Shown here: positions 56,465 to 64,000 of the stretch, one piece after another
Numbering within the stretch: position 1 is the first letter of the stretch
How the letters are laid out: every line of letters begins with the position of its first letter
Assembly: GCA_027013145.1 (NCBI GenBank)
Contig: JALUXX010000062.1
Span: 62,001-126,000, forward strand
Source: Gammaproteobacteria bacterium
Lineage (GTDB): Bacteria > Pseudomonadota > Gammaproteobacteria > 21-64-14
Reading direction: 5' to 3'
DNA: 64,000 nucleotides
The notes under the pieces: model-generated
What the model was told of the DNA's origin: nothing
Databases searched by the model: none
The model's input: only the letters and a program-made list of their open reading frames with translations
Program-made: the position numbers and the translations under genes

Positions 56465-56821
56465 TCAGGGGCGCAGCACGCTGAGGAGCATCAGGGCCGC
56501 GACCCACAGTGCACCGAGGGAAAGCATGAGTACGGCGGCCGCGGCGAGGTCCTTCACCCGCCGGATGCGCGGATCGCGCTCGGGGTGGAGGTGGTCGGCG
56601 AGTTCCTCGAGCGCGGTGTTGAACAACTCGGCCGCGAGGACGAGCACGCAGAGCAGACCCACCAGCGCCCACCAGACGGGTGCGGGGCGCAGGAGGGCGA
56701 GCGCGAGCAGCGCCAGCACGGCGATCACGGCCTGCGCGCGCAGGCTGCGCTCGGTGCGCAGCGCGTGGGCGAGTCCCTCGAGGGCGAACCCGAGGCGCTC
56801 GCGAAACGGGCGGTTCTTCAT
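56465..56821 (-). CDS. dgkA: Diacylglycerol kinase family protein
   Basis: A 118-residue inner-membrane kinase with three helices. The signature is in AELFNTALEELADHL and the later RRVKDLAAAAVL, matching the DgkA family (diacylglycerol or undecaprenol kinase). It recycles lipid from membrane-derived oligosaccharide or cell-wall synthesis. The ATG overlaps the end of the DedA-PAP2 gene by 4 bp, so the two are coupled. Confidence 0.88.
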   Translation of the reverse strand: MKNRPFRERLGFALEGLAHALRTERSLRAQAVIAVLALLALALLRPAPVWWALVGLLCVLVLAAELFNTALEELADHLHPERDPRIRRVKDLAAAAVLMLSLGALWVAALMLLSVLRP

Positions 56822-58881
56822 CGCGCCGCCGCCCCGGCGGCGGGTGCCGTCCGCAGCAGCACGGTCGTGCCGTCCCAGTGCCGATCCGGGTCCCCGTCAT
56901 CCCGCCCGTGTCCCGGCGTGCGGCGCACCACGCGCCATTGGACCCCGTGCAACGGGCCTTCGAGCACGTGCAGCGCGGCGGCGAAATCGCCGCCGGCGCT
57001 GGGCAGCGCGATCAGGCCGAGCGGGCGGTAGAGGTCCTGCTCGCTGACCGTCCCGACCCAGATGGGGACCGCGCCCGGTTCCAGCCGTACGTCCGCATTC
57101 CACAGGCGGAGCGCGATCTGGCGGTGGGACTGCGCGCCCGGCGCGGGCCGGACCATCACCAGGACCCCGTGGCGCCCGGCGTGCACCTGAGGCAGGAGCG
57201 GCAGATTCGCAAGCACCGGCCGGCTGGAGAGCCAGCGCAGCGCGGTGCCGGCGGTGAGCGCGGGCGGGCGGTGCCATCCGGCGGCCTGCAGCGCCCGCTC
57301 GATCCCGGGCAGCGGCCCGGCCCATTGCACGTTGAGCGGCTCGGAGGGACGCCCGGCCAGGTCGATGCGCCGCGCCGGCAGCCGCCTCCAGTCGTCCCGC
57401 CACCAGCCCGACGCCGCCAGCGTCGTCACGGGGTGGTGCGGCGCGTAGCGTGCCAGGTCGTCGGTGTACCGGTATGCGACCTGCCAGCCGCCGGCCAGCA
57501 GGAGGCCGGCGGCGGCGGCCCCGAGGACACCCCCGACCGGCAACGGCGTGACGCTGTGGCGCCGGTAGGCGATCCCGAGCACCGCCACCCAGACGAGGCC
57601 GAGGCTCACTCCGGCGAGCACGTCGGTCAGCCAGTGGGCCCCGAGGTAGACGCGCGAGAGCACGACCAGCGAGACGATCAGCGCCGCGGCCGTGTACGGC
57701 CCCCAGCGGCGCGCAGCGGGCAGCTCGCGCGCGAGCAGCACCGCCAGGAAGCCGTAGGTGACGGTGCTCATGGTCGCATGTGCACTCGGGAATGCGTAGG
57801 TGGAGAGGCCGGTGTAGAGGCCCGGCACCGGGCGCGGGATCTCCAGTGCCGCCTTGAGCGCGAAGGTGGCGAGCGTGCCGAAGCCGACCGCCGCCAGCCA
57901 GTGGCCGGCGGCCAGCCAGCGCCGCCGCAGCCCGAGCCACAGCCCGACCGCCAGCGTCAGGCCCAGGTCCACCGGCTGGCCGCCCAGCTCGGTGACCAGC
58001 ACCATGATGCGGTCGCCCCAGGGCGTGCGCAGGCCCTGGAAGAAATGGTAGACGGTGTGGTCCAGCGGGAGCGGGACATGATGCCGGGTGACGATGATCA
58101 GGAGCTGGAAGAAGCCCCACGCCCCGAACAGCAGGAGCAGTGCCGACAACACCAGGGCGCGCGACTCGGGCTCCTGCGGATCGACGAGGCCTGCGGTCAG
58201 GCGACCCATCACCGGGTGCTCGCGACTCCAGCGCGTCACCGCGTCGAGCCCGCGTGCGGCGCGCGGCGCGAGTGCGCCGTAGATCCAGCGCACGACCCAG
58301 TACATGAGCCAGGGGATCGCCACCAGGAGCACGAGGAGCACGGCGAGGCGCGTCGCGACCTCCGCGGCGAGTTGCAGCGAGGCGCCGAAGGCGACTCCCG
58401 GCAGGATGAAGGTCGGGGCCCACACCGCCGCCGAGGGGATGTCGACCAGCAGGAACCGGGCCGGCGCCATGCCGAGCATGCCCGCGACCAGGGGGAGGAC
58501 CGGGCGCACGGGTCCGATGAAGCGGCCGACGGCGATGCTCTTGCCCCCGTGGCGATTGAAGAAGGCCACGCCGCGGTCGATCAGCCCGGGGTAGCGACGG
58601 AACGGCCACATCACGCGCAGGCGCTGATGATAATGACGCCCGAGCCAGAAGCTGACGATGTCCCCGGCCGCCGCGCCCGCGGTGGCCCAGGCGAGCGTCG
58701 GCCACAGCGCCAGCGCATCGAGGGCGACCAGCGCGCCGATGCCGAACATAAGGAACACGCCCGGCATGAACAGGCCGACGATCGCGAGCGATTCGGTGCC
58801 GGCGACGAGGAACACCCCGATACCGGCCCACGTCGGGTGCTGCGCGAACCAGGTCAGGAGGGACTGGAGAAATTCGGGCAT
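56818..58881 (-). CDS. DedA-PAP2-LssY fusion membrane protein
   Basis: A 687-residue protein with three parts. Residues 1-190 form a DedA/SNARE-associated domain (GRFIGPVRPVLPLVAGM); 230-440 form a PAP2 phosphatase with KAALEIPRP, PSAHATMS and SRVYLGAHWLTDV; 470-687 match the LssY C-terminal domain. DedA proteins move undecaprenyl phosphate and other lipids, PAP2 enzymes dephosphorylate lipid pyrophosphates, so the fusion could couple the two steps. The partner dgkA is a lipid kinase. Confidence 0.88.
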   Translation of the reverse strand: MPEFLQSLLTWFAQHPTWAGIGVFLVAGTESLAIVGLFMPGVFLMFGIGALVALDALALWPTLAWATAGAAAGDIVSFWLGRHYHQRLRVMWPFRRYPGLIDRGVAFFNRHGGKSIAVGRFIGPVRPVLPLVAGMLGMAPARFLLVDIPSAAVWAPTFILPGVAFGASLQLAAEVATRLAVLLVLLVAIPWLMYWVVRWIYGALAPRAARGLDAVTRWSREHPVMGRLTAGLVDPQEPESRALVLSALLLLFGAWGFFQLLIIVTRHHVPLPLDHTVYHFFQGLRTPWGDRIMVLVTELGGQPVDLGLTLAVGLWLGLRRRWLAAGHWLAAVGFGTLATFALKAALEIPRPVPGLYTGLSTYAFPSAHATMSTVTYGFLAVLLARELPAARRWGPYTAAALIVSLVVLSRVYLGAHWLTDVLAGVSLGLVWVAVLGIAYRRHSVTPLPVGGVLGAAAAGLLLAGGWQVAYRYTDDLARYAPHHPVTTLAASGWWRDDWRRLPARRIDLAGRPSEPLNVQWAGPLPGIERALQAAGWHRPPALTAGTALRWLSSRPVLANLPLLPQVHAGRHGVLVMVRPAPGAQSHRQIALRLWNADVRLEPGAVPIWVGTVSEQDLYRPLGLIALPSAGGDFAAALHVLEGPLHGVQWRVVRRTPGHGRDDGDPDRHWDGTTVLLRTAPAAGAAAR

Positions 58882-61855: not shown

Positions 61856-62047
61856 ATGAGCACCGTTTCGACCGAAACCGGACTGAAGACCTATATGTGC
61901 GCGGTATGCGGCTTCGTCTACGACGAGGCCGCGGGGCTGCCCGAGGAGGGGATCCCGCCCGGCACGCGCTGGGCCGACGTCCCGTCCACGTGGCGTTGCC
62001 CGGACTGCGGCGCCGGCAAGGAGGACTTCGAGCTGATCGAGATCTGA
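61856..62047 (+). CDS. Rubredoxin
   Basis: A 63-residue electron-transfer protein with one iron held by two CxxC pairs, CAVC near residue 15 and CPDC near residue 48, and the typical linker [23 protein letters not shown] precedes the ATG. Rubredoxin next to thiD/thiE/hemL is a common gammaproteobacterial arrangement. Its partner, often a hydroxylase or reductase, is not in the window. Confidence 0.96.
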
Positions 62048-62078: not shown

Positions 62079-62834
62079 TCAGCGGCGGGCGCGGGAGCGA
62101 CGCCCGCGGACCCACAGGCGCAGCCCGGAGACGGCCAGGAACACCAGGGCCGCGGCGGCGGCGTCGGTCAGCCACGTGCCGGCGGCCCCCAGGATCCGGC
62201 CGCTGTGCACATCGAGCAACACCCGCTCCCAGCTCAGCACGTGCGCGCGCGCGTCGCGGCGCAACCGCGCGCGCAACGCCGCGGGCGCCTGCGCCGGTGC
62301 GATCCAGGCCGCCTGCGGCGCGGCGTCGGCGCTCCAGTCGAGCCGGTCGAGGTCGACGCGGTAGATCCCGTGCGCCGTGCGCACGCGCACCGCCCCGTCG
62401 GTGCCGGCGGCGATCGCCTCGATCCCCGATGGGGCGCCCTGCGCGGGCCCGATGCGTTCGACGGGCGTACCCTGTGCGGTGAGCAGGAGCAGCCCGCCCG
62501 TGCTCGCCGCCACCAGCAGGGGGCCCGCTTGCAGCGCGCCGCGCAGCGCCCCGTCGATCCGTACCGGAAGCGCCCGCGCGTCCAGATACAGGCGGCGGCC
62601 GACGGCGCTCACCCAGCGCCCGCCGATCCGAAAGCTGACCGGCTCCTCCACGCCGATTCCGTACCAGTCGAGCAGCCCGGCGGCGCCGACGAAGCGGCGC
62701 TCCAGGTGCAGGGCGTCGCCGTGGTTGAGGGCCACACCGGTCAGCGCGAGCAGCAGCACCAGCACGGCCGCACTCACGCCCGCATAGCGGTGCCAGACAT
62801 AGAGCGAGCGGATCTTGGAGCGCCGGCGCCGCAT
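62079..62834 (-). CDS. PepSY-associated membrane protein
   Basis: A 251-residue inner-membrane protein with a helix near 10-35 (WHRYAGVSAAVLVLLLALTG, the PepSY-TM signature with a conserved His) and another near 215-240, plus a periplasmic domain between them that includes a LLDVHSGRIL segment. PepSY-TM proteins often pass electrons across the membrane in metal or flavin systems. It lies just downstream of an FMN-binding-domain gene. Confidence 0.78.
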   Translation of the reverse strand: MRRRRSKIRSLYVWHRYAGVSAAVLVLLLALTGVALNHGDALHLERRFVGAAGLLDWYGIGVEEPVSFRIGGRWVSAVGRRLYLDARALPVRIDGALRGALQAGPLLVAASTGGLLLLTAQGTPVERIGPAQGAPSGIEAIAAGTDGAVRVRTAHGIYRVDLDRLDWSADAAPQAAWIAPAQAPAALRARLRRDARAHVLSWERVLLDVHSGRILGAAGTWLTDAAAAALVFLAVSGLRLWVRGRRSRARR

Positions 62835-62837
62835 CGC

Positions 62838-63458
62838 TCAGCGCCCTTGCGGCGCCGGTCGCCGGCCGGCCCCGCCCGGCGCGGTCTCTGCGGCATGGGC
62901 GGCCAGGAACAGCGCCAGGCGCGCGAGCCGGCGTACCGCGCGGACCGACAGGGTGGCGCCGGTGATGCCGTCGATGCGCCGGTCCAGGCCGTCGCCGGCG
63001 CCCGGGCCGGCGCCGTCGAACTGTCGGGTGAAGGCGCGCCGGCGCACCTCCCAGCCGCGGCTCTCGCGGTACTCGAGGATCGCCAGCCGCGTGATGCGCC
63101 CGGCGTCGACGACGACGCCGACGGTGATCGGACGCTCCTTGCCGATCTCCTCGAGGATCCAGGCGCTGACGGTGCCGCGCGCCCAGTAGCGCAGGCGCAG
63201 GACGCCGAGGTCGTGACCGAGGATGGCGCGCACACCGGGGCGCAACGCCCGTGTGATCCATAGCACGCGCGGGGCGGGCACGGAGCCGGCGAAGGCGCGG
63301 TCGAGAAACGCCCGCGGCGCCTCGTAGACCTCGGCGACGGCGACGCCGGCGAGCAGCCAGAGGGCGAGCGCCGGCCAGCGGGCGGCCCCGCGCCGCCTCC
63401 CTGCGGCCGGGCGCGCGCGCCGCGGCGCGGCCTCAGAACTGATAGCCGATGCCGGCAT
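62838..63458 (-). CDS. Extracytoplasmic FMN-binding domain protein
   Basis: A 206-residue protein with a hydrophobic segment near 27-42 and an FMN-binding domain of the RnfG/NqrC/NosR kind. The site DGITGATLS at residues 163-171 fits the covalent FMN motif attached by ApbE, probably at Thr169. The N-terminal 24 residues are Arg-rich. It overlaps the porin-like gene by 26 bp and precedes the PepSY gene by 3 bp, so the three form one unit. Confidence 0.8.
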   Translation of the reverse strand: MPASAISSEAAPRRARPAAGRRRGAARWPALALWLLAGVAVAEVYEAPRAFLDRAFAGSVPAPRVLWITRALRPGVRAILGHDLGVLRLRYWARGTVSAWILEEIGKERPITVGVVVDAGRITRLAILEYRESRGWEVRRRAFTRQFDGAGPGAGDGLDRRIDGITGATLSVRAVRRLARLALFLAAHAAETAPGGAGRRPAPQGR

Positions 63459-64000
63459 TGAAACCGTCGTCCTGCACCGCGCCGCCCTGGCGCTGGACGT
63501 CGAACTTCAGCACCACGTTCGGGATGGGCCAGTAGTTGAAGCCGGCGTTCGCCTGCCATTTCCAGGTGTTCGCCCCGGTTCCGCCGTTGTCCCATTCGTT
63601 GTAGCGCGCGAACAGGCCGATCTTCGGGTGCGGCCGCACGGAGGGCTCGACGTACCAGCCGTACTGCAGATCGCGCCCGGCGGCGCGCGGCCCGGCACCG
63701 AACAGGTCCCAGCGCGCGTACAGGGCGCGCAACGCGAACGGACCGCGCGCGGCGATGGCGTGGGCCTCCCACAGCAGGGCGTCGGCCCCGGTGCCGGGGA
63801 GTCCCTTGCCCTGGGTGAGATCGGTCTGGTACTGGAGTGTGGTGGCCAGTTCGATCCCCGGCACGGCGGTCCAGCGTACGCGGCCGGTGAACGCGCCGTT
63901 GTCGGCGCTGGCGTGCGAGGCGCTCTGGCGGCCGGGGCGGATCAGGTAGGCGTTCGCCCCGGTGGTGGCCGTCTTGAGTCCGGAGCCGACCGTCGCCTCG
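63433..64000 (-). CDS. Porin-like outer-membrane protein (3' part)
   Basis: C-terminal part of a beta-barrel protein; the frame stays open to the window edge. The strands alternate polar and aromatic residues (LFARYNEWDNGGTGANTWKW, NAGFNYWPIPNVVLKFDVQ) and the last residue is Phe in NAGIGYQF, the usual BAM-recognised ending. It resembles phosphate-selective-porin-type barrels but the substrate is unclear. Upstream of the FMN-binding gene in one operon. Confidence 0.72.
   Translation of the reverse strand, partial: EATVGSGLKTATTGANAYLIRPGRQSASHASADNGAFTGRVRWTAVPGIELATTLQYQTDLTQGKGLPGTGADALLWEAHAIAARGPFALRALYARWDLFGAGPRAAGRDLQYGWYVEPSVRPHPKIGLFARYNEWDNGGTGANTWKWQANAGFNYWPIPNVVLKFDVQRQGGAVQDDGFNAGIGYQF

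Follow-up and report, generated by a model that had tools for sequence, protein, structure and literature searches.

A conserved porin, FMN_bind and PepSY_TM gene trio with a predicted Fur box, probably serving reductive iron assimilation

What does a bacterium do with an outer-membrane barrel, a protein bearing a covalent-FMN motif and a PepSY_TM membrane protein encoded side by side? The question arises at the end of the 64,000-nt stretch analysed here (the window, positions 62001-126000 of contig C62, which runs on past it). A first-pass annotation of the letters had read the three genes as a group that moves electrons across the inner membrane to a periplasmic flavin, perhaps for metal uptake or reduction. 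The trio proved to be real: the open reading frames lie on the minus strand and are spaced as annotated, with a 3-bp gap between the PepSY_TM and FMN_bind frames and a 26 bp overlap between the FMN_bind and porin frames (Table 1). PF04205 was matched by the FMN_bind protein at 37.6 bits (cut-off 22), PF03929 by the PepSY_TM protein at 49.7 bits (cut-off 28.8) together with PF16357 at 39.2 bits, and the barrel protein gave only a sub-threshold match to Porin_O_P at 20.2 bits (cut-off 20.9). Searches of PHROGs and NCBIfam yielded no better name for any of the three. Extension past position 64000, as the annotation had proposed, recovered the barrel gene complete on the contig, with a GTG start equivalent to window position 64668 and a product of 411 aa.

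Table 1. Positions of the trio and of the flavinylation motif in the window.
Feature	Position	Strand	Basis or remark
Porin gene, C-terminal part in the window	63433..64000	-	Cut by the window edge; whole on the contig at L004:3934-5169
FMN_bind protein, 206 aa, putatively secreted	62838..63458	-	ORF and Pfam PF04205
PepSY_TM protein, 251 aa, two TM	62079..62834	-	ORF and Pfam PF03929, PF16357
DGITGAT codons (residues 163-169) of the FMN_bind protein	62952..62972	-	Read on the sequence

Two other genes of the window were noted. A rubredoxin gene (61856-62047, plus strand) lies 31 bp from the operon end, adjoins thiD-like, thiE-like and hemL-like genes and is probably unrelated to the cassette; it is an unlikely partner, being convergent with the operon and adjoining the cassette in few relatives. 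Further away, positions 56818-58881 (minus strand) encode a 687-aa protein that reads like a DedA-type membrane domain fused to a PAP2-type phosphatase, with one more domain at the C-terminus.

The FMN_bind protein was found in 34 of 142 relatives, each of a different family. Among the 31 examined with wider flanks, the porin gene stands immediately upstream of the FMN gene in the same orientation in 30 and 2.4 kb upstream in one further relative, and a recognisable PepSY_TM gene follows the FMN gene in 28. A scan of GTDB contigs returned at least 505 relatives of the FMN protein, and in the 80 that were kept the porin was present at 77/77 loci with room for it and the PepSY_TM gene at 75/79. 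Among the hosts in this second set are Shewanella gelidii, Neiella, Sinimarinibacterium, Kordiimonas, Pelagicoccus and a large number of uncultured lineages from the sea and from groundwater. The set takes in Alphaproteobacteria as well as Pelagicoccus. An even sample of the class (369 genomes) gave the same linkage from both sides: of 76 strong FMN homologues, 73 directly follow a porin gene, and linkage holds for 73 of 80 strong porin homologues. Several of the exceptions are found at the ends of contigs. Because the trio is conserved in dozens of families, chance is excluded, and porin, FMN_bind and PepSY_TM genes form a conserved unit. Its distribution is patchy, as a relative of the same genus (G001) does not carry it. 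Distances among FMN proteins co-vary with those among their PepSY_TM neighbours (r 0.58, Mantel p 0.0005).

An apparent FMN-PepSY fusion in one relative (L160) was rejected, because its 502-aa frame runs through the FMN region out of register with the FMN gene. The flanking genes of 32 loci yielded no further operon member; only an ErpA-like gene and an ATP-grasp enzyme showed scattered synteny. Two loci (L156 and L157, in G151 and G262) carry porin homologues with no neighbouring FMN or PepSY_TM gene, and there an FMN homologue is found elsewhere in the genome.

The FMN_bind protein has a hydrophobic N-terminal segment at residues 28-42, judged by eye, and a distant match in the PDB to RnfG (E 0.008). 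Thr169, the residue that the first-pass annotation had proposed to test for flavinylation, is correctly placed: it is the predicted ApbE flavinylation site in DGITGAT, which fits the (S/T)GA(T/S) ApbE-substrate motif, and it is conserved in 32/32 homologues, among which Gly167, Ala168 and Ser171 are likewise invariant. The protein shares its FMN_bind domain and the invariant Thr in (S/T)GAT with the electron carriers RnfG, NqrC and NosR, but it is a small, putatively secreted protein that belongs to no Rnf, Nqr or Nos complex.

Absence of apbE had been named as a reason to abandon the flavin assignment; that objection fails, because the genome holds two apbE genes (268.7 and 203 bits). One (contig C24, L179:2074-7544) precedes nosR-nosZ and most likely serves NosR; through this apbE-nosR-nosZ cluster the organism encodes a TAT-dependent nitrous-oxide reductase. 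The other (contig C36, L180:3259-6267) lies in the order gshB-apbE-tonB with no FMN_bind gene nearby. Of the 13 cassette genomes that have one main apbE, 12 retain this order, and the stretch from the thirteenth is cut before gshB; the gene is apparently a housekeeping apbE. The host genome encodes only two FMN_bind proteins, NosR and that of the cassette, and by elimination, in a count of FMN_bind substrates only, we infer that the gshB-linked ApbE is probably the transferase for the cassette protein. More widely, apbE was detected in 29 of 31 cassette genomes and was not detected in the other two, G029 and G121, both fragmented assemblies. One genome (G058) has a single apbE and a single FMN_bind protein, that of the cassette. 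At two loci (L077 and L087) apbE is attached to the cassette, and at a third (L158) it separates the FMN gene from the PepSY_TM gene.

For the third protein, the label 'PepSY' holds for the transmembrane part and not for the periplasmic domain. The predicted model (pLDDT 94.6) contains two TM helices and a 12-strand periplasmic domain; the best Foldseek matches of this domain were mostly beta-propellers (best E 2e-3, none reaching E 1e-3), and from the model we infer that it resembles half a beta-propeller. The PepSY_TM profile matched FoxB (7ABW) at E 4.2e-7 through both protein ends. The N-terminal TM helix is bounded by His15 (29/29) and His38 (27/29), and His210 (29/29) precedes the C-terminal one; in the alignment, FoxB histidines stand opposite His15 and His210, and one lies next to His38. 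Homologous TM segments and conserved histidines at both membrane faces are shared with FoxB, FpvG and FhuB, the PiuB-type PepSY_TM reductases of periplasmic ferric siderophores. In contrast to the four TM helices and two periplasmic PepSY domains that FoxB-type proteins carry in one chain, the modelled cassette protein has half the helices and no PepSY domain, and the cassette adds a separate flavoprotein and has a porin in place of a TonB-dependent receptor. The known reductases of the PepSY_TM kind have four or more TM helices (PMC13038864) and carry PepSY domains (PMC10866019), so the cassette protein is a relative and not a member of that subgroup. We propose that two copies associate into a homodimer, which would have four helices as FoxB does.

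Among described systems, the cassette comes closest to the PepSY-like flavinylated system (Méheust et al. 2021, eLife, PMC8238504), defined by a PF03929/PF16357 protein encoded no more than five genes from an ApbE, FMN-binding, DUF2271 or DUF3570 gene; iron reduction was proposed for such systems, and some of their clusters are Fur-repressed and iron-linked. The cassette has the gene content of this definition, its two genes being adjacent and both products above the Pfam cut-offs, and its genome encodes apbE. The definition also asks for a signal peptide on one or more of the target products, for which the hydrophobic N-terminal segment of the FMN_bind protein is a candidate. Both arrangements place a PepSY_TM gene beside a predicted flavinylated periplasmic protein. 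The described clusters, however, mostly contain DUF2271 (2833/3220) with DUF4198 and often apbE, whereas here an FMN_bind protein is joined by a dedicated porin and apbE usually lies elsewhere; their PepSY_TM protein has three TM helices where that of the cassette has two, and a half-propeller-like domain replaces the PepSY domain. The word 'porin' does not occur in PMC8238504, and no description of a porin, PepSY and FMN-binding trio was found in the open-licence literature. The cassette is a distinct architecture.

The barrel protein has 16 strands in its AlphaFold model (pLDDT 82.9) and porin matches in the PDB. The protein comprises a signal peptide (by eye), a coiled coil at about 33-79, also present in the model, and the barrel at 92-411. 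Foldseek matched the model to OmpK36, OmpC, OmpU and OprP at E about 1e-12 to 1e-11 (best E 5.7e-13; OprP E 1.1e-11), while the sequence itself had no significant match in the PDB. The predicted fold is accordingly that of the 16-strand porins OmpC/OmpK36 and OprP, at only about 10-16% identity and with a strongly conserved block of its own. In porins the constriction loop L3 sits between strands 5 and 6. The most conserved block of the cassette porin, P176-W206 (HEPPTFYGVERNPVE), lies between the same strands, within a modelled loop (175-206, after strand 5) at the L3 position, and a selective channel is plausible.

Gibbs sampling upstream of the 31 porin genes produced a de novo motif, AATGCAAATCATTCTCATT (AATGCAAATCATTCTCATTTA), with a total score of 714.6 against 360-372 for shuffled sequences. 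Its form is that of a Fur box, and AATGATAATCATTATCATT, which some relatives carry upstream, is the classical Fur-box consensus. Scores of at least 18 were reached at 44 of 61 independent loci outside the training set compared with 3 of 488 control windows; the upstream regions of the other 17 scored below 18. When the 3.28-Mb host genome was scanned with the degenerate motif, allowing up to two mismatches, four sites were found, preceding this operon, exbB-exbD-tonB (the pair, then a TonB-like protein), cupredoxin-FTR1 and feoA-feoA-feoB; the reversed pattern gave no sites in the same scan. The operon's own site has 0 mismatches and lies 72-90 bp before the porin start, and the genome contains fur and encodes four Fur-family proteins in all. 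This predicted Fur box is the strongest functional evidence and assigns the operon, on sequence grounds, to the iron-uptake regulon. The suggested 'metal uptake or reduction' can thereby be narrowed to iron, as the same motif otherwise precedes only feoAB, FTR1 and exbB-exbD-tonB and the PepSY_TM helices match FoxB; copper, the other metal raised, found no support. Beyond the window, an ErpA-like A-type Fe-S protein gene (L004:5409-5846, plus strand) diverges from the porin gene, and the predicted Fur box, with a start site on either side, might act on both genes. Several relatives also encode Fe-S_biosyn proteins in the flanks of the cassette.

Genes for ferrous iron uptake adjoin the cassette in some lineages. 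One locus (L060) reads feoA-feoB-feoC-porin-FMN-PepSY, all on one strand, another (L149) likewise reads feoB-porin-FMN-PepSY, and feoB is divergent or nearby in G154, G264 and G290. These five genomes represent three families, against a chance expectation of about 0.13 within 5 kb. Across the 369 genomes FeoB is not enriched with the cassette (37/76 vs 121/293, p 0.30), and a role for it as the obligatory importer is not supported; the Fe(II) importer must therefore vary, with others such as FTR1 serving elsewhere. In the host, Fe(II) import has a second candidate in the Fur-box-preceded cupredoxin and FTR1 iron permease (L067).

The genes, their conserved linkage, the predicted Fur box, the presence of apbE and the conservation of key residues point, with a probability of roughly 70%, to a Fur-repressed operon for reductive iron assimilation that would encode a periplasmic ferric reductase with its own porin; flavinylation, heme, the direction of electron flow, the ferric substrate and the selectivity of the porin are what this reading predicts. 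Under iron scarcity the porin would be made and would let small ferric complexes in. Electrons from the inner-membrane quinone pool or a cytosolic donor would pass through the PepSY_TM protein, which is probably a homodimeric b-type cytochrome, to FMN that ApbE has attached to Thr169 of the putatively secreted FMN_bind protein. In the periplasm the resulting flavoprotein would reduce Fe(III) or detach it from its ligand, and FeoB or FTR1 would import the Fe(II). More tentatively, and we hold this fuller version to be possible rather than probable, the cassette may provide a TonB-independent Fe(III) route, in which a porin with an invariant constriction loop passes weakly chelated Fe(III) to the flavoprotein reductase, which would receive its electrons from a half-size cytochrome. 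Two copies of this cytochrome would pair up as a four-helix heme bundle like that of FoxB, beneath a six-bladed propeller.

The reductase might instead act on ferric siderophores delivered by TonB-dependent receptors, leaving the porin a role in general permeability or product export. FoxB-type PepSY_TM proteins do act with TonB receptors (PMC10866019), and exbB-exbD-tonB shares the Fur box, but the 25 commonest families in the flanks of the 32 loci include no TonB-dependent receptor, whereas the porin is nearly always part of the cassette; we consider this alternative unlikely. Less likely still is an outer-membrane electron conduit, with the flavoprotein docked on the porin and Fe(III) reduced at or outside the outer membrane. 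The two genes are almost inseparable and the predicted coiled coil of the porin could recruit a partner; against this, the barrel is that of an ordinary 16-strand porin, the operon has no multiheme cytochrome or other cofactor able to span the outer membrane, and porin and FMN protein distances show no significant co-variation (r 0.17, p 0.14). A redox chain merely regulated by Fur and aimed elsewhere, at copper, periplasmic protein repair or oxidant defence, is the least probable, for although PepSY_TM proteins can serve other metals, as CrpH does copper in Bordetella (PMC13038864), the remaining motif sites in the genome precede iron uptake genes and feoB adjoins the cassette in several lineages.

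If reductive iron assimilation is indeed the task of the operon, a function would be at hand for a gene trio with at least 505 relatives of its FMN protein across public genomes. The cassette would also offer a testable case of iron acquired through a porin and covalent-flavin reduction in place of the usual route by TonB receptor and siderophore, and FoxB-type heme reductases may then stem from duplication of a two-helix half.
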